In this document: positions 491 to 13,411 of the stretch, in pieces
Layout of the letters: every line of letters begins with the position of its first letter
Numbering within the stretch: the first letter of the stretch is position 1
Virus record (IMG/VR): IMGVR_UViG_3300017776_000242
Coordinates: 1 to 21,608 of that record
DNA length: 21,608 bases
From: a virus
Strand: one strand, 5' to 3'
Translations under genes and position numbers: made by a program
Notes under the pieces: generated by a model
Seen by the model: only the letters and a program-made list of their open reading frames with translations
Databases searched by the model: none
What the model was told of the DNA's origin: nothing

Positions 491-3001
491 ATGAAATTTT
501 ATACCTCAGTATCTCGCTACGGCAATAACCTTCTTTATAGAGGTTATGCTAATGGCAAAAAAATTCAAACAAAAATTAAATACCAACCAACCTATTATGT
601 TAATACAACTAAGGACACTGGTTATCGAGCCTTAGATGGCACAAAGGTTGCGCCTATCAAATTTTCTGATATGCGTGACGCAAAAGAATGGCTTTCAGCA
701 AATCAACATACTGCTGGTCGTCATATCTATGGAAACAATAAACACATTCCCGCTTATATCAATGAAGCATTTCCAGGGAATATCAAATTTGATCGTAATC
801 TTATTAATGTAACTACAATCGATATTGAGGTTCAGTCTGATGCTGGATTTCCAGAGCCTGAAGAAGCGGCTCATGAAGTTACAGCAATATGTATCAAAAA
901 CAATATTGACAAAACTTTTTATGTCTGGGGTCTTAAAGACTATGATGTAGAAAACAGCTACATGCAAGAAAGTCGTGTGGTATATGAAAAATGTTTAACC
1001 GAATCTGAACTTCTACTTAAATTTATCGCGCACTGGGCTTTACCTTCTCATTGTCCAGATGTTATTACTGGTTGGAATTCACGATTCTTTGATATGCCAT
1101 ATCTTATTAATCGTATTATCAAAATTCATGGCGAAGAGTTTGTACGTAGGTTATCACCATGGGGTTTAATTGATCGACGCGACGTTACAACAATGCAACG
1201 CAAACAATGTGCATATGAAATTCAAGGTATTGCCCAAATGGATTACCTTGATCTATTTCGTAAATTTGGTTACTCTTATGGTCCACAAGAATCATATAAG
1301 CTAGATCATATTGCGCATGTTGTTCTTGGTGAACGTAAGCTCTCATATGAAGAACACGGTAACCTACATACTTTATACAAATATGACCATCAAAAATTTA
1401 TTGATTATAATATCAAAGATGTGGATCTTGTAGATCGCTTTGAGGATAAGATGGGTCTTATTACTCTTGCTCTTACTATGGCTTATCGTGGTGGTGTTAA
1501 CTATGGCGATGTTATGGGTACAACTGCAATATGGGATTCTATTATTTTCCGTAATCTCTTTGCTAACAATGTAATTGTTCCCTTTGGCGAAGAAAAGTTT
1601 AAATCACCATATCCTGGTGGTTATGTAAAAGATCCACATGTTGGAATTCATGAATGGGTTGTTTCTTTTGACTTAAACTCGCTGTATCCATCAATCATTA
1701 TGCAGAATAATATGTCACCTGAAACTATTATTAATGGTAAAGTTGCTAATGTTTCGGTTGATACACTTCTTAGTGGCGAGGTAAAACCTAGGCTTGAATC
1801 TAACGAATGCGCTGCAGCTTCAGGCCAATATTTTAAAACTGACACTCAAGGTATTCTTCCAAAAATTATCGATGAAATGTATAGTGAACGCGTTGTCATA
1901 AAAAGACAAATGATTAATTCTCAGCGTGAGCTCGAAAAGGTTGATAAAAAAGATAAGCAAGAATTATATCGAGTCCAAAGGGATATTAACATTGCTGAAA
2001 ACCAGCAAATGTCGATTAAGATTCTTCTAAACAGTCTTTATGGCGCCCTAGGTAACAAGTATTTCAGATTCTTCGATCAACGTATTGCTGAGGGTATTAC
2101 TTTATCTGGCCAATTAACAATTCGTTGGGCTGAAAAGGCAATCAATGAATATCTTAACAAAGTCCTTAAAAGCAATAAAGATTATGTAGTTGCTATTGAT
2201 ACCGATTCTGTTTATGTAGTTCTCGATGATCTTGTTAAAGCTGTCAATCCTAAAAATCCACTTGAATTTGTAAACACTGTCTGCAACGAAAAGCTTGAAA
2301 AAGTCCTTGAAGACAGTTATAACACTTTATTCGAAACCATGGGTGGTATTGAAAATCGAATGGTTATGAAACGTGAAGCTATTGCTAATCGTGGTATATG
2401 GACAGCTAAGAAAAGATATATTCTCAATGTTCTTGATAATGAAGGTGTTCGTTATGCTGAACCTAAACTTAAGATCATGGGTATTGAAGCTATAAAATCT
2501 TCAACTCCAGCTCCATGTCGTGAAGCGTTAAAACAAATGTTTAAAACTATTATTAGTGGTTCAGAATCTGCAGTTCAAAAAGATATTGAATTATTCAGAT
2601 CACATTTTAAAACACTTTCCCCCGATCAAATTGCCTTTCCACGTGGTATAACTAATCTTACAAACTATATGGATAATCAAACCATATACAAAAAAGGTAC
2701 ACCAATTCATGCACGTGGCAGTATTATGTACAATAAACTTCTTGTTGACAAATCACTTCAAAGGCAATATAACAAAATTCAAAATGGTGAAAAGATCAAA
2801 TTCATATATCTTCGAATACCAAACCACATAAAGGAAAATGTTATATCTTTCCTTGATTACCTTCCGGAAGAGTTTGGTTTACATCGATATATTGATTACG
2901 ATACTCAATTTAATAAAACGTTTTTGGATGTAATTGATCCAATACTTTCAGCTATCGGTTGGAACTCTAAGGATGTTGCAACTCTTGATGAATTTTTTTA
3001 A
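491..3001 (+). CDS. 43: Family B replicative DNA polymerase, T4 gp43-like
   Basis: The 836-residue protein is the phage replicase with 3'-5' proofreading. Exonuclease motifs are visible: Exo I D111-x-E113, Exo II around D201 (NSRFFDMPY) and Exo III Y306-x3-D310, lining up with T4 D112/E114, D219 and D324. Polymerase motifs follow: motif A SFDLNSLYPS (D394), motif B KILLNSLYGALGN (510-522), motif C D570-T-D572, then KKRY. It is slightly shorter than T4 gp43 (898 aa). The C-terminus TLDEFF sits where T4/RB69 polymerase carries its gp45 clamp-binding peptide. No Shine-Dalgarno sequence is seen upstream of the ATG, unlike nearly every other gene here. T4 gene 43 is autoregulated at translation, so regulated initiation is possible but not shown. 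The next gene starts after its own promoter. Confidence 0.97.
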   Translation: MKFYTSVSRYGNNLLYRGYANGKKIQTKIKYQPTYYVNTTKDTGYRALDGTKVAPIKFSDMRDAKEWLSANQHTAGRHIYGNNKHIPAYINEAFPGNIKFDRNLINVTTIDIEVQSDAGFPEPEEAAHEVTAICIKNNIDKTFYVWGLKDYDVENSYMQESRVVYEKCLTESELLLKFIAHWALPSHCPDVITGWNSRFFDMPYLINRIIKIHGEEFVRRLSPWGLIDRRDVTTMQRKQCAYEIQGIAQMDYLDLFRKFGYSYGPQESYKLDHIAHVVLGERKLSYEEHGNLHTLYKYDHQKFIDYNIKDVDLVDRFEDKMGLITLALTMAYRGGVNYGDVMGTTAIWDSIIFRNLFANNVIVPFGEEKFKSPYPGGYVKDPHVGIHEWVVSFDLNSLYPSIIMQNNMSPETIINGKVANVSVDTLLSGEVKPRLESNECAAASGQYFKTDTQGILPKIIDEMYSERVVIKRQMINSQRELEKVDKKDKQELYRVQRDINIAENQQMSIKILLNSLYGALGNKYFRFFDQRIAEGITLSGQLTIRWAEKAINEYLNKVLKSNKDYVVAIDTDSVYVVLDDLVKAVNPKNPLEFVNTVCNEKLEKVLEDSYNTLFETMGGIENRMVMKREAIANRGIWTAKKRYILNVLDNEGVRYAEPKLKIMGIEAIKSSTPAPCREALKQMFKTIISGSESAVQKDIELFRSHFKTLSPDQIAFPRGITNLTNYMDNQTIYKKGTPIHARGSIMYNKLLVDKSLQRQYNKIQNGEKIKFIYLRIPNHIKENVISFLDYLPEEFGLHRYIDYDTQFNKTFLDVIDPILSAIGWNSKDVATLDEFF

Positions 3002-5847: not shown

Positions 5848-6156
5848 ATGGCTAAATTTGACGAAAACAAAACACCACTTGGCTTAATACCACCAGAAGC
5901 ATTAGCTCAAATTGCTGATGTCTTTGGCTTTGGTGCTGAAAAGTATGGTGTAAACAATTGGCGTTATGATGGCGACTCAACCAGCTGGATTCGAACATAT
6001 TCATCTGTTCAGCGACATCTTAATGCATGGCATTCTAGTATTGACAATGACGATGAATCTGGTATGACTCATCTTGCGCATGCAGCGACTCAAATCATGA
6101 TTCTCATGACACATGCTATTGAACATCCAGAAGTCGATGATAGGTACAAAAAATGA
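5848..6156 (+). CDS. dATP/dGTP diphosphohydrolase N-terminal-like protein
   Basis: The 102-residue protein matches a phage family that I recall as the dATP/dGTP diphosphohydrolase N-terminal domain: KTPLGLIPPEALAQIADVFGFGAEKYGVNNWR (8-39), then RHLNAWHSS...DDESGMTHLAHAATQI (56-83). The E/H/D residues in the second block probably bind metal. The family is helical and MazG-like, converting a dNTP to dNMP and pyrophosphate. Here it directly precedes, and overlaps by four bases (ATGA), the dCMP hydroxymethylase gene, so a dNTP-pool role such as supplying dCMP from dCTP is attractive but unproven. AAAGGA lies ahead of the ATG. This is the second candidate pyrophosphatase in the window. Confidence 0.8.
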   Translation: MAKFDENKTPLGLIPPEALAQIADVFGFGAEKYGVNNWRYDGDSTSWIRTYSSVQRHLNAWHSSIDNDDESGMTHLAHAATQIMILMTHAIEHPEVDDRYKK

Positions 6157-6803
6157 AAATAAGTGATATAAGAAATCATTTTCGTAATGAATTATTAAAT
6201 AAAAATTTTACAACTGATCGTAATGGCAGTAAAACTATTGAATTGCTTGGTGCATCTTTCCATGCTACTGAACCAGCAATCTTTGGTAAACCAAACCAAG
6301 AATATATTGATGCTGAAATATCATGGTATGAGTCTCAATCAACAAACATTAACGATATTTACGTTGATAGAGATCCACCTAAAGCTTGGCAAATGACAGC
6401 AAATCGTCATGGTGAAATTAATTCTAATTATGGTCATCTCATCTGGAGTGAACAATATCATAATCAGTTTAATTCAGTTGTTAATGAACTAAGAACCAAA
6501 CCTGACTCGCGTAGAGCATCGATGATTTATACTCGTCCAAGTATATGGGTCGAATATAATGATCAAAACAAAAATGATTTTATTTGTACTAATTCGGTGA
6601 CATACTATATTCGAGATGATGAATTACATTGTGTAGTACAAATGAGATCAAACGATGTTATATTTGGCTATCGTAATGATTATGCATGGCAAGAATATGT
6701 TCTTTGCGCATTGGCTGATGAACTTGGCGTTAATGATGGTGATATGTACTGGCAAGTACAGAATTTACATGTCTATGAAAGACATTTTGATTTGGTGAAA
6801 TAA
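6153..6803 (+). CDS. 42: Deoxycytidylate (dCMP) hydroxymethylase, T4 gp42-like
   Basis: A thymidylate-synthase-fold enzyme that makes 5-hydroxymethyl-dCMP from dCMP and methylenetetrahydrofolate. It closely follows T4 gp42: EIxWYxSxS near 55-63, GEINSNYGHLIWSE (87-100), PDSRRASMIYTRPS (117-130), NDFICTNSVTY (141-151) with catalytic Cys145, and VVQMRSNDVIFGYRNDYAWQ (161-180). Cys145 and Asp176 are both offset by three from T4 Cys148 and Asp179. That Asp replaces the Asn of thymidylate synthases and selects cytosine over uracil, so the enzyme should act on dCMP. At 216 residues it is about 30 shorter than T4 gp42, ending at LHVYERHFDLV. It overlaps both neighbours, which are also nucleotide enzymes. 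It implies 5hmC in the phage DNA. Confidence 0.93.
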   Translation: MKISDIRNHFRNELLNKNFTTDRNGSKTIELLGASFHATEPAIFGKPNQEYIDAEISWYESQSTNINDIYVDRDPPKAWQMTANRHGEINSNYGHLIWSEQYHNQFNSVVNELRTKPDSRRASMIYTRPSIWVEYNDQNKNDFICTNSVTYYIRDDELHCVVQMRSNDVIFGYRNDYAWQEYVLCALADELGVNDGDMYWQVQNLHVYERHFDLVK

Positions 6804-7267
6804 TGAACGATTGGGGAATATCAAAAACTTATAAATGGGATAAGCGATATCTTGAATTAGCTCGACATATCGCGTCTTGGTCTAAAGATCCATCTCGTAA
6901 AATTGGAGCTGTTGCTGTAGGAACTAAAGGACAGGTTTTAGCTCAAGGTTATAATGGATTTCCACGTGGAATTGACGATAAAGATTCTATGTACAATAAT
7001 AAAATTACTAAATATGAAAGGGTCGTTCATGCTGAAATGAACTGTATATATAATGCTACATATAACGGCACTTCATTAGATGGATCAACAATGTATATTC
7101 ACGGATTACCAGTTTGTTCTGAATGCGCTAAAGGTATTATACAAGTTGGTGTAACAAGAGTTGTAACATCAGAAATAGATGATTCAATGCCAGAACGATG
7201 GGTTGAATCTACAGTATTAACTAGAAAACTGTTTGAAGAGGCAGGAATTATTTATGACTTCATTTAA
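6803..7267 (+). CDS. cd: dCMP deaminase
   Basis: The 154-residue zinc deaminase has H76-A-E78 (zinc ligand and catalytic Glu) and PVCSEC (Cys105, Cys108) as remaining zinc ligands. It has the dCMP-deaminase-type N-terminal block SKDPSRKIGAVAVG and QGYNGFPRGIDD. It converts dCMP to dUMP, feeding dTMP synthesis, here presumably by the ThyX encoded at 16617-17276. Hydroxymethylase and deaminase thus compete for dCMP, and adjacency (TAATG overlap) would keep them in proportion. The motif has PVC rather than the usual PC before the first zinc Cys. An extra zinc site as in T4 deaminase is not obvious. Confidence 0.9.
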   Translation: MNDWGISKTYKWDKRYLELARHIASWSKDPSRKIGAVAVGTKGQVLAQGYNGFPRGIDDKDSMYNNKITKYERVVHAEMNCIYNATYNGTSLDGSTMYIHGLPVCSECAKGIIQVGVTRVVTSEIDDSMPERWVESTVLTRKLFEEAGIIYDFI

Positions 7268-7568: not shown

Positions 7569-7645
<77 letters not shown>

Positions 7646-8523: not shown

Positions 8524-9804
8524 ATGTCAAAAATAAATATCGCCATCGCGGGCGTAGGTAATTGTTCATCGGCACTTGTGCAAGGCGTTCAATATTATAT
8601 AGAAAAACCAGAAGATAAAATTGGCCTGATGTTTGAAGACATTGGTGGCTATTCAGCTGAGAATTTTAACTTCGTCGTTGGATTTGACGTTGATTCACGT
8701 AAAGTTGGTCAACGGTTAAATAAAGCAATTTATGCTAAACCAAATTGTAACATGGAAGTATTTCCTCCAGGTCACGATATGAGCTGTATTGCTAATGAGT
8801 CTACAGTATTCAGATCTCCAACTATGGACGGGATTGCTCCTCATATGAATGAGCTTGATGAAAATGTTACATTCCTAGAGGACAATAAAACCACACCAAT
8901 TACAGCATCTGAATATAGAAAAATTCTTAAAGATCGCAAAGTTGATGTATTACTTAATTATATGCCAGTAGGAGCTGAAGAAGCTGCAGCATGGCACATT
9001 GAAAATGCTATTAAGGCTGGTGTTCATGTTGTAAACTGTATGCCAACTTATATTTCTACAAAAGATGCTATGGAATTAGAGCAATTGGCTATTGACAATG
9101 GTGTAACAATTGTTGGCTCTGATATGAGATCTGATTATGGCGCATCACGTTTATCTGAAGTTCTTCAAGGATCTATTATGGATTCTGGCCTTTTGGTTAC
9201 ACAACACATTCAAGAAAATAAAGCTTGTGGTACAACCCAAGGTGATATGCGTAGGATTGGTAGAACAGCAAATACTGATTTCTTAAATATGGCAACAAAA
9301 GATCGTTTGAAAAATAAGCATATTTCAAAAGAGAATGTACTTAATGGCCAAGCTACAGTTCGTGGTAAAGATATCGCAGGACTTACAATGTATGCTGGTC
9401 CATCACTTACAGTTTTCCAAAAGCCAGGTGGTGAATATATTGGATCTGATAATAAAATTGCAAATATCGATATGGTATTTTGGGGTTGGGCTGGCGCTCG
9501 TTATGAGCTAACCGCTCGTTTATCAGTTCAGGATTCTCCAAATAGTGCTGGTATCGTGTATGATGCTATTAGATTCTGTAAAGTTGCTTCTGAAATGGGA
9601 ATTGTTGGTTACTTACGTGGACCATCAGCTTGGTCACAAAAGACTCCACCTGAGCAGCTTAAAACTGCAGATGCTAAATTTGAATGTGATGCATTGGCTC
9701 GTAGAGTTTTAACTGATAAAACAACTCCTCAACTTAAAGAAAATAATCCTAAAGTTGAAGATCTAACTTATACATTCCAATCAGGTGAAAACGATTATGC
9801 CTAA
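8524..9804 (+). CDS. ino1: myo-Inositol-1-phosphate synthase (Ino1)
   Basis: The 426-residue enzyme would convert glucose 6-phosphate to myo-inositol phosphate using NAD as a recycled cofactor. It is close to the bacterial/archaeal Ino1 type: INIAIAGVGNCSSALVQGV (Rossmann NAD site, 4-22), VVGFDVDSRKVG, VDVLLNYMPVGAEEA, INCMP-like VVNCMPTYIST, GSDMRSDYGAS, DFLNMATKDRLKNKHISK and the hallmark QDSPNSAGIVYDAI. It ends like actinobacterial Ino1 at PSAW...KTPPEQL, but with about 35 further residues and extra internal inserts. All expected blocks are present, so it is probably active. AAAGGAG precedes the ATG. Very unusual in a phage; it heads an operon with a HAD phosphatase and predicted DNA-modification proteins. 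Confidence 0.93.
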   Translation: MSKINIAIAGVGNCSSALVQGVQYYIEKPEDKIGLMFEDIGGYSAENFNFVVGFDVDSRKVGQRLNKAIYAKPNCNMEVFPPGHDMSCIANESTVFRSPTMDGIAPHMNELDENVTFLEDNKTTPITASEYRKILKDRKVDVLLNYMPVGAEEAAAWHIENAIKAGVHVVNCMPTYISTKDAMELEQLAIDNGVTIVGSDMRSDYGASRLSEVLQGSIMDSGLLVTQHIQENKACGTTQGDMRRIGRTANTDFLNMATKDRLKNKHISKENVLNGQATVRGKDIAGLTMYAGPSLTVFQKPGGEYIGSDNKIANIDMVFWGWAGARYELTARLSVQDSPNSAGIVYDAIRFCKVASEMGIVGYLRGPSAWSQKTPPEQLKTADAKFECDALARRVLTDKTTPQLKENNPKVEDLTYTFQSGENDYA

Positions 9805-10174
9805 GCAATTAATTAATACATTTGATATTGATGGAGTAATTTATTTCGGCGAGGACGTAACTGGTGTGCGTCCTGGCCGTGATGATGTTATTATTACCGG
9901 AAGGTCGTATCAACAAGAGCTTGATACCATTGTTATGCTAAAATCTCGTGATATACATAATCATGTAATGTTTAATCCTTTAAAGCGAAGTGATGATGCT
10001 TATAGCAGAAAAGCTTCAGGTATTCATAAAGCTAAATGTATCACAAAGCTTAAAGAATCATTTAAGATTGGACTACACTTTGAGGACGATCCTATTCAAA
10101 TTGAAGAAATTAAAAAGGTTCATCCAGAATTAAATATAATCCACTTAGTCAGAGAGGGTCTCATTGGCTACTAA
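9797..10174 (+). CDS. Small HAD-superfamily phosphatase-like protein
   Basis: 125 residues from ATG 9797, which has AGGTG upstream; an in-frame GTG at 9785 would add four residues. HAD motifs in order: FDIDGVI (nucleophile Asp10 and general acid Asp12), TGRS (34-37), Lys78/Lys80, and HFEDDP (95-99). There is no cap domain and no membrane segment. HAD enzymes use a phospho-aspartate to remove phosphate from small substrates. Its gene overlaps ino1 by eight bases, so inositol phosphate is an obvious candidate substrate, but a nucleotidase or polynucleotide phosphatase is equally possible from sequence. It overlaps the next gene by 11 bases. Confidence 0.8.
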   Translation: MPKQLINTFDIDGVIYFGEDVTGVRPGRDDVIITGRSYQQELDTIVMLKSRDIHNHVMFNPLKRSDDAYSRKASGIHKAKCITKLKESFKIGLHFEDDPIQIEEIKKVHPELNIIHLVREGLIGY

Positions 10175-11228
10175 TTCTTATAATTATGATTGGTGGTCAT
10201 TTGATAAAGACCTTATGCTTGACTTCAATCATTTCTTAAAAAAGATTAACGATCGTGCAGCTATTCATCAAGGTTTTACTAATGATCAATATGAAAATCT
10301 AAATCGTCATGGTGTAATTGACCATGGCTTAGGTGAGAACGTTGAATATTTTCATCCTACGATTACCTTAGATGATCGTATGAGATTTATTGGTACTGAA
10401 ATTGCTACATCTCGAATGAGCGATACTAATATTGTTGGTAACACGATTATATCTCACTTTTATGGGGCTCGTGGAGTTCACTGGATAGTATCAGGAAAGG
10501 AAGGAACCTTTGTTGATTTTGATCGAATTGCAGATGGCGATGATGACTATATTAAGTTTCTACGTAATAACATCGATAAAGCTATAAGAAATAAACAACC
10601 TATCTGGGGAACGACTGAGTTACACACATCGATTCAAACTGCTGGTAGAAACTATTGTCGTAAAAAATATAATGATCCAGATCGTAAGTTTCATCCAGTT
10701 GACGTAAGTGAATGGGTTGCTTCTTTCAGAGATACTAAAATCATTGAAGGTATGCTAGCTGCTAAAGATCTTTTTGAAGTGTTTACTTTATTAAGAACTT
10801 TACCAGGAGTTGGTGAATATTATGGATTCCATTGTGCAACTTCAACATCTGTTTTACCTCAAATGAAATATCATCATGATCAAAGGTTTGTTGCGCCAGG
10901 ACCAGGAGCAGTTTATACGATAAAATTACTTTGGCCAGATGTTCCTAATAAATATCTAGCTGAAGCAATTTATTTTATAAGAGAAAACGCAGCTGAAATT
11001 GGTTTGACTAAGGATGTTACGTTCCATGAATCAGCATATAATATTGAATTAGACAATGGTTCACATTTATTTAAAGAACAACAGAATGGATTAAAGTACT
11101 ACGGTACTGAGGTTCTATGTTGCCAGTATGGTGTATATCTACAAATAAGAGATGACGAAAAGGCCTGTGGAAGACGTCAAGTTGCTAGAGCTAAGACGCC
11201 TCAAAACACATTAACTGAGTTTTTTTAA
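10164..11228 (+). CDS. Alpha-glutamyl/putrescinyl thymine pyrophosphorylase-like DNA-modification protein
   Basis: 354 residues if TTG 10164 is the start, supported by AGAGAGGG (10150-10157) six bases upstream; the next ATG is at 10215. The central block has the helix-hairpin-helix signature LRTLPGVGEYYGFHCATST (LPGVG), then a D-Q-R-F-V-A-P-G-P-G-A stretch. This order (LPGVG, Asp, PGPGA) is what I recall for the DNA-glycosylase-like aGPT-pyrophosphorylase families proposed to attach groups to hydroxymethylated pyrimidines in phage DNA. The family's PWT N-terminal motif is not seen, so this is a divergent member. The tail TLTEFF resembles the polymerase's clamp peptide. A glycosylase with another role is the main alternative. 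Confidence 0.6.
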   Translation: MATNSYNYDWWSFDKDLMLDFNHFLKKINDRAAIHQGFTNDQYENLNRHGVIDHGLGENVEYFHPTITLDDRMRFIGTEIATSRMSDTNIVGNTIISHFYGARGVHWIVSGKEGTFVDFDRIADGDDDYIKFLRNNIDKAIRNKQPIWGTTELHTSIQTAGRNYCRKKYNDPDRKFHPVDVSEWVASFRDTKIIEGMLAAKDLFEVFTLLRTLPGVGEYYGFHCATSTSVLPQMKYHHDQRFVAPGPGAVYTIKLLWPDVPNKYLAEAIYFIRENAAEIGLTKDVTFHESAYNIELDNGSHLFKEQQNGLKYYGTEVLCCQYGVYLQIRDDEKACGRRQVARAKTPQNTLTEFF

Positions 11229-11229
11229 G

Positions 11230-12219
11230 ATGAAAAATATAATCAACTGCCCATTTATTCCAATAGCAAAACGTCATGCATCTCACCGAGGAGCTCAAGG
11301 CGTTATCTATGGAGATATGATTAAGGAAAAATATGGAAACTGCGATGTCAACTATGGTGGAGAAATTACAGATCATAATGCTTATGATAATCTCTGGGTT
11401 TATCATGGCAGTGATTATAGCGGCGGTCTTAATATGTTTGGTGGCGTTTATGGTTTCCCATACGTTGCTAACACTGTTAACTTTTCTAAATTTAAAGGTC
11501 AAGTCTATTCTATAGGTATGGATTTTCCTCCATATCATGAAATGATTAAAAGTAAATTAGATGCTGCTAAACGAGACGTTCAGCCTGAATGGCATCAGGT
11601 TGACTTAAAAAATCTTAAAAGAATGCATGACACAGCAATTAGAGTTGATTATCCTAATCCAACAGATAAAGTTATTATTGGTGATAGTCATTCAATATGT
11701 ATGTATCGTCCAGGTTGGACTGTTAATAGCGTTCCATTTAAAACCTTAAATGGCGCATTGAAACAAGGATTCAAAACATTTATTCCGCCAACAGGATATA
11801 AAGAACTTCATTGTTATTTTGGTAACATTGATGTGCGTCATCATATTATTAGATTAGAAGCAAGTATTATTGATTTGGCTGATAGATACATGGAAGAAGC
11901 TAGTAAATTTGACGCTAAGATATATGAACTATTGCCAATTGAACATGAATCAAGAAAGATCCCACAATCTGGATATCATAAAGGTAAACCATTCTGGGGT
12001 TCATGGCATGAAAGAACAGATATTCGTAATCAATTTAACGATTACATTGAAAAGGAATACGGCATCATAAGATGGACCGATAAATTAATGAATAAGGCTG
12101 GTGAGCTTGATTTTAAATATATGGAAAAGCCAAAATCAATTCATCTGTCAAGAGAGTTTTATCCATATTGGAATGGAATCGAAACTAAAATAACAAATAC
12201 ACTTGAGGAATTTTTCTAA
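11230..12219 (+). CDS. SGNH/GDSL-like domain protein in DNA-modification operon
   Basis: A 329-residue protein. The C-terminal two thirds carries SGNH-hydrolase blocks: IGDSHS (catalytic Ser), NGALKQG (Gly), YFGNIDVRHHI (Asn/Asp, similar to GEIDxRxH forms), and KSIHLSREFYPYW (His) near the end. The N-terminal ~110 residues (HASHRGAQGVIYGDMIKEKYG, then YDNLWVYHGSDYSGGLNMFGG) may be a separate domain and faintly recall the N-terminal half of phage beta-glucosyltransferases; this is weak. The family cleaves or transfers acyl groups, often on sugars. It ends in TLEEFF. It starts two bases after the previous stop with no clear ribosome site, so coupled translation is likely. The target is unknown. 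Confidence 0.6.
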   Translation: MKNIINCPFIPIAKRHASHRGAQGVIYGDMIKEKYGNCDVNYGGEITDHNAYDNLWVYHGSDYSGGLNMFGGVYGFPYVANTVNFSKFKGQVYSIGMDFPPYHEMIKSKLDAAKRDVQPEWHQVDLKNLKRMHDTAIRVDYPNPTDKVIIGDSHSICMYRPGWTVNSVPFKTLNGALKQGFKTFIPPTGYKELHCYFGNIDVRHHIIRLEASIIDLADRYMEEASKFDAKIYELLPIEHESRKIPQSGYHKGKPFWGSWHERTDIRNQFNDYIEKEYGIIRWTDKLMNKAGELDFKYMEKPKSIHLSREFYPYWNGIETKITNTLEEFF

Positions 12220-12220
12220 T

Positions 12221-13411
12221 ATGACTACATGGGCAAGCATTGTACCATTGATTGGTGGTGAGACCATCGCAATGGAAAACGTTTTTAAAACTAAACCAAA
12301 ATATTTTTTAACATTTGATGGATTTCAAGCAAATGAAGAACATTTGAGAAACTATTACAATAATGAGATTCCATATTTGAATTTGTCAAATGGTGATAAG
12401 CATACTGAAAGCGTTGATGTTGTAAATACAGTATGTCCATGTGCTGGTCTAAGTTCTTTAAGTCCTTCTGCTTCAAGCAATAATCCAGCAAATGATTGGA
12501 TGATTAAATCAGCAGAATATGTTTTAAGTGAAATGTCGCCAAAGGTATTTTGGGGAGAAAACGCTCCAAGACTAGCATCAAAAATGGGTGAACCAGTTGT
12601 AAGAAGATTACGTAAAATTGCTGAAGACAATGGTTATACATTTAGTATTTTTAAAACAAAATCTTTATTACATGGATTGAGTCAAGTTAGAGATCGAACA
12701 TTTTATTTCTTTTGGAAAGACAATACTGTTCCATTATTTGACTATATTGAAGTTCCACCAACAATGATTGCAGATGATATTAGATCTGTAGTGAATGACC
12801 CATCTGATGAAATGAGTCAAATTTTATGTAATGATAAAACTCCATCAGAAGATCCATATTATAAGTATATCTTAGAAGAACTCGAAGGTGGAATTACCCA
12901 CAAAGAGTTTGCAGCTAAGATTGAAAAGACCACAAATGTTCAAGATTATATTGAAGAACATACAACCTATAACAAGGTTGCTGAGTGGATGCGAGCAAAT
13001 GGATACGATAATGTAGCTCGTAAATGCGATAGAGCTTATCACAAGCTCAAAGCAGGTGGTAATATTATGCGTAAAGGCGTTGAAATTCCAAAGGATAAAA
13101 TTGGAGCTTTCGTAGGTCATATGCCAACAAGCATAACACATCCAGACGAAGATAGATTTTTAACAGTAAGAGAATCTATGTCTTTGATGAAATTGCCAAA
13201 TGACTATAAATTAGTGAATCCTAAAAGATCACTAAATCATATATGTCAAAATGTACCTGTAACCACAGCCGAACATCCAGCAGCTATGGTTAAAAAGTAT
13301 CTTGAGGGAAAACTTGATTCAATAGATACTGATTATATGGTACAAGATAATAAGAAAAAAACCTATGAATTTGTAAAAAACAGTTTACAATTGACTGAAT
13401 TTATGATATAA
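12221..13411 (+). CDS. DNA (cytosine-5) methyltransferase
   Basis: 396 residues from ATG 12221, one base after the previous stop, with GAGGA (12205-12209) upstream. Motif order is that of C5 methyltransferases: ASIVPLIGGETIAMENV (motif I-like), TFDGFQANEEH (II), VNTVCPCAGLSSLSP (IV, catalytic Cys74), WGENAPRL (VI, ENA at 113-115), LHGLSQVRDRTFYFFW (VIII), a target-recognition region around 170-300, TVRESMSLMKLPNDY (IX, 315-329) and ICQNVPVTTA (X, 341-350). Motif IV reads CPCAGLS instead of PPCQGFS, a divergence at the active loop. It should methylate cytosine in a short site. A C5 enzyme is unexpected in a phage making hydroxymethylcytosine, where most sites would be blocked. The last 11 codons and the stop lie in the next promoter. 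Confidence 0.88.
   Translation: MTTWASIVPLIGGETIAMENVFKTKPKYFLTFDGFQANEEHLRNYYNNEIPYLNLSNGDKHTESVDVVNTVCPCAGLSSLSPSASSNNPANDWMIKSAEYVLSEMSPKVFWGENAPRLASKMGEPVVRRLRKIAEDNGYTFSIFKTKSLLHGLSQVRDRTFYFFWKDNTVPLFDYIEVPPTMIADDIRSVVNDPSDEMSQILCNDKTPSEDPYYKYILEELEGGITHKEFAAKIEKTTNVQDYIEEHTTYNKVAEWMRANGYDNVARKCDRAYHKLKAGGNIMRKGVEIPKDKIGAFVGHMPTSITHPDEDRFLTVRESMSLMKLPNDYKLVNPKRSLNHICQNVPVTTAEHPAAMVKKYLEGKLDSIDTDYMVQDNKKKTYEFVKNSLQLTEFMI

Follow-up and report, generated by a model that had tools for sequence, protein, structure and literature searches.

We analyzed a stretch of viral DNA of 21,608 nucleotides (positions 1 to 21,608 of the IMG/VR record IMGVR_UViG_3300017776_000242), called here the window. 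This 21.6-kb record carries a tight series of T4-like genes on the plus strand, two of which, encoding proteins that we term F and G, are the subject of this work. We propose that F and G act as a pair, tethered to the replisome, and add myo-inositol to the 5-hydroxymethylcytosine (hmC) of newly replicated phage DNA, a tentative reading to which we give somewhat less than an even chance. More firmly, the sequence comparisons reveal a real and widespread cassette predicted to hypermodify hmC, with F found in 42 contigs, a myo-inositol-phosphate synthase (MIPS) homologue in 57 and G in at least 592. Its functional information is mostly held by the MIPS gene and its HAD phosphatase-like companion, by G, which combines an SGNH domain with a likeness to the T4 beta-glucosyltransferase (BGT), and by C-terminal tails common to several of the enzymes. 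The main features are the following.

10164-11228, plus strand: protein F, 354 residues, PF18723 (HMUDK_hel) family, likely HhH-GPD/PUGT-like fold
10800-10832, plus strand: HhH-like motif LPGVGEYYGFH of protein F (residues 213-223), placed by sequence and motif spacing
11205-11225, plus strand: tail NTLTEFF of protein F, a clamp-type (PIP-like) peptide, predicted to bind the clamp
11230-12219, plus strand: protein G, 329 residues, T4-BGT-like N-terminal half and SGNH/GDSL-hydrolase-fold C-terminal half, tail NTLEEFF

Family and fold of protein F

The gene for protein F begins with TTG and its start overlaps the stop of the upstream HAD gene (9797-10174); the open reading frame is thus present as described in an earlier note made from the sequence alone. 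Relatives at 56-96% identity were found in 42 IMG/VR contigs, and full-length relatives at 24-26% identity in 19 Aeromonas phage records, so that the frame is, on sequence comparison, real and conserved and does not occur by chance.

The earlier note had described F as a divergent aGPT-type pyrophosphorylase in an hmC phage. This label was not borne out: F gave no match at E<=0.1 with the profile PF18724 (ADDT), which we take to be the old aGPT-Pplase family and on which gp51 of Pseudomonas phage M6 scored E 1.4e-46. F matched PF18723, "5-hmdU DNA kinase, helical domain" (5-hmdU, 5-hydroxymethyldeoxyuridine), with E 6.2e-9 and 36.1 bits for a cut-off of 25, through residues 185-279 aligned with positions 145-239 of the 281-position profile. 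The PF18723 proteins of M6 (gp55) and of Salmonella phage ViI (87558-88565) belong to the same Pfam family above its cut-off. When the F family was compared by hhalign to M6 gp55, which effectively constitutes the HMUDK_hel template alone since the ViI sequence is not in the alignments, E was 1.5e-4 and 3.7e-4 through the GPGA and C-terminal ExxxC[EQ]F regions that the two have in common, whereas the comparison with ADDT stayed below significance (E 0.069 and 0.18). We therefore group F, partially and from sequence profiles, with HMUDK_hel and reject its membership of aGPT/ADDT. What stands of the earlier description is a divergent protein of the base-hypermodification type in an hmC phage, pointing to cytosine chemistry.

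A homologue from a jumbo phage (contig L167) matched PF18723 more strongly (E 3.7e-15, 56.5 bits) and reached 318 phage records by tblastn, 128 of them Salmonella phages. A PDB sequence search with F gave no lead, and its profile did not match phages 25, Mendera and Cr30 and reached only E 0.048 in PTm1.

In phage M6, gp55 (E 8.1e-56) is a separate neighbor of the P-loop 5-hmdU kinase gp54 (PF18748), and gp51 is the PF18724 protein. Among 11 genomes, PF18723 was present in nine, while the kinase and ADDT were restricted to ViI and M6. These two phages hypermodify thymine; the phages with F have hmC as the base and G as the partner protein. The complete genomes of Aeromonas phages 44RR and avDM9 encode neither kinase nor ADDT by these profiles, and the kinase was also not found in seven long, possibly fragmentary, IMG/VR contigs. 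A 5-hmdU kinase located elsewhere in the genome was searched for in 44RR, avDM9, Mendera, Cr30 and phage 25 and was not found.

The AlphaFold2 model of F, built from 18 sequences, has a mean pLDDT of 77 and a pTM of 0.73. Foldseek retrieved nothing significant from the PDB, the rank-1 entry being PUGT, the glycinyltransferase gp46 of phage PaMx11 (8z2n, E 0.55, prob 0.33; also 8z2m). With VIA, the glycosylase MjOGG (3knt) came on top (Z 7.1, rmsd 4.1, 185 residues aligned), along with human DUF2419 (Z 6.6), PUGT (8z2n, Z 6.2, rmsd 4.4, 221 aligned) and OGG1 entries at Z about 5. An HhH-GPD/PUGT fold is likely for the modeled F, and it is not proved, since such Z values fall in the range that VIA calls common. 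By eye, F also has in common with PUGT and ADDT (M6 gp51) an HhH-like GxGxY and a C-terminal ExxLC-type motif, but no significant sequence match links them and no amino-acid-tailoring pyridoxal phosphate (PLP) enzyme adjoins F.

G215, G217, Tyr219 and His223 are invariant in 74 of 74 distinct F sequences, as are the GPG of GPGA, Glu316, Cys320 and Gln321. By motif spacing, and presuming that OGG1 numbering applies, Tyr219 occupies the position of the catalytic Lys of bifunctional glycosylases; monofunctional glycosylases likewise do without this Lys. Some 19 residues beyond that position, where glycosylases would have their catalytic Asp, lies Asp239, an Asp in 70 sequences and an Asn in four. 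The Lys of an ordinary glycosylase, the counter-case raised in the earlier note, is therefore not there, and we discarded the idea that F is an ordinary bifunctional glycosylase. A role as a cellular repair gene was likewise discarded: in 84,980 species genomes scanned, two of 47 pattern matches were confirmed and both lie in a phage cassette. These two (L199 and L200) are contigs of one marine planctomycete metagenome-assembled genome (MAG), TMED10, that carry the whole cassette, probably as phage DNA within the MAG bin.

Protein G and the shared C-terminal tails

The model of protein G, built from 30 sequences, is of higher scores (pLDDT 90.7, pTM 0.87). Its C-terminal half folds like the SGNH/GDSL hydrolases (2hsj, E 1.3e-6, Z 12.8), and G also matches T4 BGT with UDP-glucose (1j39) structurally over 248 columns (E 9e-4, prob 0.97). 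At the sequence level, G scored 13.9 bits on the T4 BGT profile PF09198, under its cut-off of 27, with a weak match at residues 29-95 (E 0.044). T4 BGT has a UDP-sugar-binding domain, whereas the C-terminal half of G is the SGNH domain, with an invariant Ser and His. In 92 of 92 distinct sequences, Gly151-Asp152-Ser153-His154, Gly198, Asp201, Glu238 and His305 are unchanged; the SGNH blocks are thus represented by the GDS Ser153 (92/92), the block III Asn199 (88/92) and the block V His305 (92/92). The canonical SGNH Asp three residues before the His is missing, position 302 being Lys, Gln, His or Arg. Because of the invariance of Ser153 and His305, G is likely to keep an intact nucleophile and His. 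To our knowledge, it would be the first SGNH enzyme acting on DNA.

G and F also end alike. In the window, the DNA polymerase ends in ATLDEFF, F in NTLTEFF, G in NTLEEFF and a C5-methylase-like protein encoded next to G in LQLTEFMI. Among distinct tails, an L..F pattern near the C-terminus was present in 16 of 18 polymerases, 42 of 55 F, 54 of 60 G and 38 of 40 C5-methylases, two of these 40 being extraction artefacts. It was absent from the hydroxymethylase (0/36), deaminase (0/52), MIPS (0/36), UvsX (0/38) and ThyX (0/9) and occurred in 6 of 49 HAD proteins. In 44RR, where F and G are fused, the fusion ends in SLDGLFAI, and the G of phage 25 ends in KTLELFDI. Within the cassette, the clamp-type tail is thus found only on F, G and the C5-methylase, and these counts set the presumed DNA-acting enzymes apart from those predicted to work on metabolites. 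T4-type polymerases bind the clamp through their C-terminal peptide, and the tails of F and G, of the same type as that of the polymerase, may bind the phage clamp as well. PMC13216743 reports that the T4 alpha-glucosyltransferase co-purifies with the clamp gp45, and that its output is not determined mainly by clamp binding.

The cassette and its counterparts in other phages

The other genes of the window that bear on the cassette are as follows.

2978-2998, plus strand: tail ATLDEFF of the window DNA polymerase, the reference for the shared tail
6153-6803, plus strand: dCMP 5-hydroxymethylase of the T4 gp42 type, with Asp, by homology
6803-7267, plus strand: dCMP deaminase, annotated by homology
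8524-9804, plus strand: MIPS homologue, 426 residues, by profile and homology
9797-10174, plus strand: small protein resembling HAD phosphatases in its conserved motifs; its own ATG (9797) overlaps the stop of MIPS
12221-13411, plus strand: C5-cytosine methyltransferase-like protein of divergent sequence, with its own ATG (12221), the motif PCAGLS and the tail LQLTEFMI

The window hydroxymethylase matches T4 dCMP hydroxymethylase (1b49) with E 2.4e-67 and reads RND where the T4 entries 6l18 and 6a9a have Asn. From its sequence it is a T4-like dCMP enzyme, the cytosine-specifying Asp replacing the Asn of thymidylate synthase, in agreement with the earlier note. The MIPS homologue matches the Mycobacterium tuberculosis inositol-phosphate synthase (1gr0) with E 1.5e-47 and PF01658 with 31.6 bits for a cut-off of 27; it reaches E 1.2e-57 on TIGR03450, under the equivalog cut-off of that model. 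Lys265, 269, 311 and 373 are kept in at least 97% of 80 distinct MIPS sequences, and the DxD, T, K and DD motifs of the HAD protein in 72 distinct sequences; we take these to be the catalytic residues. A PDB sequence search with the HAD protein gave no lead.

Co-occurrence was counted separately for the F, G and MIPS searches, whose contigs overlap. Around the 42 F contigs we found G in 40, HAD in 38, MIPS in 37, the C5-methylase in 38, the hydroxymethylase in 29 and the deaminase in 30, and all six were present in 17 of the 17 contigs whose flanks exceeded 5 kb upstream and 3 kb downstream. The MIPS search gave F in 50 and G in 48 of 57 contigs, and HAD, F and G in 17 of 17 well-flanked ones. 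As the gene order is reshuffled in some contigs (L136, L159-L161, L165 and L167), the association of F, G, MIPS and HAD is not mere synteny of close relatives.

The G search yielded at least 592 confirmed matches (599 stretches), of which the best 80 were retained; in these, MIPS, HAD and F accompany G in 24 of 31 well-flanked contigs and none of the three in the other seven. Six of these seven (L122, L124, L125, L126, L128 and L130) carry a 400-residue protein, a PLP enzyme of the M6 gp52 type and a 354-residue protein X; the seventh, L129, has the 400-residue protein only, and L123, with a shorter flank, has all three. The order in L122-L126, L128 and L130 is hydroxymethylase, deaminase, 400-residue protein, PLP enzyme, protein X, G and C5-methylase. 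The 400-residue protein and protein X (L122-L130) gave no Pfam or PHROG match and no significant comparison with HMUDK_hel or ADDT. This arrangement suggests a second hmC-type cassette, for an amino-acid-derived cytosine hypermodification.

Cultured phages offer further variants. F and G relatives co-occur in 44RR, 31 and related Aeromonas phages, 19 records in all, and in 44RR, whose genome encodes a hydroxymethylase, they form one protein of 795 residues. Among Aeromonas records, a homologue of SLC5-type sugar symporters (2xq2, E 3e-103) is found in exactly the same 19; in 44RR and avDM9, the two regions inspected, its gene immediately precedes that of the fusion, and it is possibly an alternative polyol supply. 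Available portions of PMC6163359 report the 44RR symporter as sodium/glucose-type, with no role proposed there. By accession comparison, the G relatives are spread over 43 phage records: these 19, 21 with the glycosyltransferase (GT)-like protein of phage 25 (the GT-like frame is present in 21/21) and three Tenacibaculum phages. In phage 25 (L046, 5776-9044), a UDP-galactopyranose mutase (UGM) and a GT-looking frame lie directly upstream of the G homologue, hinting at galactofuranosyl-hmC. As phage records include GenBank/RefSeq duplicates and near-identical phages, all these counts represent few independent lineages.

The MIPS-HAD pair lies near DNA-modification genes in three phage groups, with F and G only in that of the window. 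Stenotrophomonas phage Mendera (L047, 10001-14624) carries the pair beside QueC, a TGT/DpdA-looking protein and QueE; the tail of the TGT/DpdA-looking protein (SLDDLFG) resembles that of its own DNA polymerase (SLEDLFG), and a clamp-tethered 7-deazaguanine system is possible. Caulobacter phage Cr30 (L048, 7732-12254) has in one cluster an ADDT (gp123, E 1.3e-52), a TAGT-like protein (gp122) with a clamp-like tail DLSKLF, MIPS (gp121) and HAD, and so resembles the window in placing the pair beside an enzyme of the thymine-hypermodification set. It is unlike the window phage in that no hydroxymethylase, F or G was found in it; it also had no 5-hmdU kinase match, and Menderavirus gave neither F match nor hydroxymethylase. 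The Menderavirus inositol synthase has been described as a bacteria-like gene (PMC9025141).

Some side observations concern the rest of the cassette. A tRNA-Arg (TCT) gene lies at 7569-7645, between the deaminase region and MIPS. The C5-methylase-like protein (also, for example, L129, 7452-8681) keeps the catalytic PC(A/S)GLS and QVR(D/E)R motifs with a degenerate SAM motif region (PLIGGE/N), though the C5 position should already be hydroxymethylated in the phage; it might act on hmC instead of methylating. Frames that look by eye like GIY-YIG proteins, probably homing endonucleases, sit inside the cassette in L122 (9160-9756) and L167 (7349-7957).

A proposed pathway, its alternatives and its meaning

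In T4 and RB69, glucosyl- and arabinosyl-hmC arise from hmC made at the nucleotide level and decorated after replication. The window phage would resemble them in both respects, but no known hmC glucosyltransferase was recognized in the window, and its cassette has MIPS and HAD. We propose that the hydroxymethylase makes hmdCMP, which is then incorporated, a step well supported by homology. Judging from homology and conserved motifs, MIPS would convert glucose-6-phosphate to inositol-1-phosphate, from which the HAD enzyme would strip the phosphate, leaving free myo-inositol as the presumed donor. Protein F, a kinase-free member of the HMUDK_hel family, may bind hmC and flip the base, as its modeled fold suggests. 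Protein G, with an N-terminal half similar to the part of T4 BGT that binds DNA, would stand in for the 5-hmdU kinase, activating the hydroxymethyl group or carrying a covalent intermediate and so enabling the coupling of inositol; this is the least certain step. Both proteins would be held to DNA by their clamp-type tails. The product would be 5-(inositolyl-oxymethyl)cytosine or a close derivative, inositol being the leading candidate for the added group. A wider proposition, which we consider possible but doubtful, is that phage DNA contains 5-(myo-inositolyl-oxymethyl)cytosine, the work of a branch of the thymine-hypermodification enzymes that lacks the kinase and has the SGNH-fold, BGT-like G in its stead. 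This system would form a common core on which donor modules can be exchanged, for inositol synthesis, import of a polyol, galactofuranose or an amino acid.

Several observations weigh against this pathway. The PF18723 match spans just 95 of 281 profile positions in F and falls below the cut-off in the relatives from 44RR (16.3-19.4 bits) and avDM9 (17.2 bits). The model of F has moderate scores, and the fold matches found with it are weak, the Z values of 7.1 and 6.2 being of the common kind. SGNH domains are usually esterases or acyltransferases, and we know of none that couples a polyol. G occurs with the PLP enzyme and without MIPS or F in seven contigs (L122-L126, L128 and L130), and in phage 25 it stands without MIPS or F beside the UGM and GT-looking genes; with such differing donor modules, G has no fixed link to inositol, and F could use another donor as well. 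MIPS and HAD occur without F and G in Menderavirus and Cr30. Finally, glucose/galactose carriers are the nearest match of the 44RR symporter, inositol transport being only a candidate role for it.

One could assume that F alone attaches inositol, as a PUGT-like transferase, and that G is a late tailoring enzyme that acylates or deacylates the inositol, sugar or amino acid once it is in place. The structural resemblance of F to PUGT would fit, as would the SGNH fold of G with its invariant Ser and His, since SGNH O-acyltransferases and esterases act in this way. The association of G with four donor modules (MIPS, HAD and F; symporter and F fusion; UGM and GT-like protein; 400-residue protein and PLP enzyme) also suits a common finishing step. 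We consider this unlikely, however, as the F-G fusion and the BGT-like half of G suit a primary action on DNA and F has no significant sequence match to ADDT. We see a similarly small chance that F and G place a group other than inositol on hmC while MIPS and HAD are auxiliary metabolic genes meeting another need of the host cell. Such a role is in line with the occurrence of the pair apart from F and G in Menderavirus and Cr30, and with the MIPS-less setting of G in phage 25, 44RR and contigs L122-L126 and L128-L130; the joint presence of MIPS, HAD, F and G in 17 of 17 well-flanked contigs despite rearrangement argues against it, and in Cr30 the pair again adjoins DNA-hypermodification genes.

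Two further possibilities concern F itself. It appears improbable that, instead of hypermodifying, F serves as a glycosylase or as an accessory that flips bases, in DNA repair or in the breakdown of competing DNA. MjOGG gives the highest VIA row (7.1, tied with PUGT at 6.2) and F has the HhH-like motif and Asp239 in 70 of 74 sequences, but, by motif spacing, Tyr219 stands at the Lys position in all 74, Asp239 is an Asn in four, F matches PF18723, and the genome scan confirmed only the two contigs of one marine MAG, with the phage cassette. Less credible still is a true aGPT/ADDT enzyme acting on a 5hmdU-derived thymine: it is favored by the weak structural match to PUGT and the ExxLC-type motif seen by eye in common with M6 gp51, and opposed by the missing PF18724 match, the insignificant hhalign values, a hydroxymethylase of the dCMP type and two complete genomes (44RR and avDM9) with no 5-hmdU kinase found.

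By computation, inositolyl-hmC is isobaric with glucosyl-hmC (C16H25N3O10, [M+H]+ 420.161); an inositol-type base could therefore be overlooked, as mass alone would not reveal it. Unmodified hmdC computes to 258.108 and a phospho-inositol form to 500.128, and acetylation would add 42.011. A search of a mainly open-access literature returned no paper proposing inositol in phage DNA, and PMC8670742 mentions neither inositol nor HMUDK. According to portions of Petrov et al. 2010 (PMC2993671), phages 44RR, 31 and 25 have gene 42 without glucosyltransferase genes, and whether phages of this type modify hmC otherwise was recorded as not known at that date. Our proposal offers a candidate answer for these cultured Aeromonas phages.

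Cytosine and thymine hypermodification are treated as separate, with sugar transferases acting on hmC and a kinase with an amino-acid transferase acting on 5-hydroxymethyluracil. Here a family of the thymine set, to which belongs an enzyme hitherto known from thymine modification only, is found in hmC phages, kinase-free and beside inositol-making genes. A polyol on the base would matter for resistance to restriction and CRISPR. The swaps of donor modules around G, for their part, suggest that further bases are to be found. If the proposal is true, an inositol-bearing cytosine would count as a novel type of building block in DNA.

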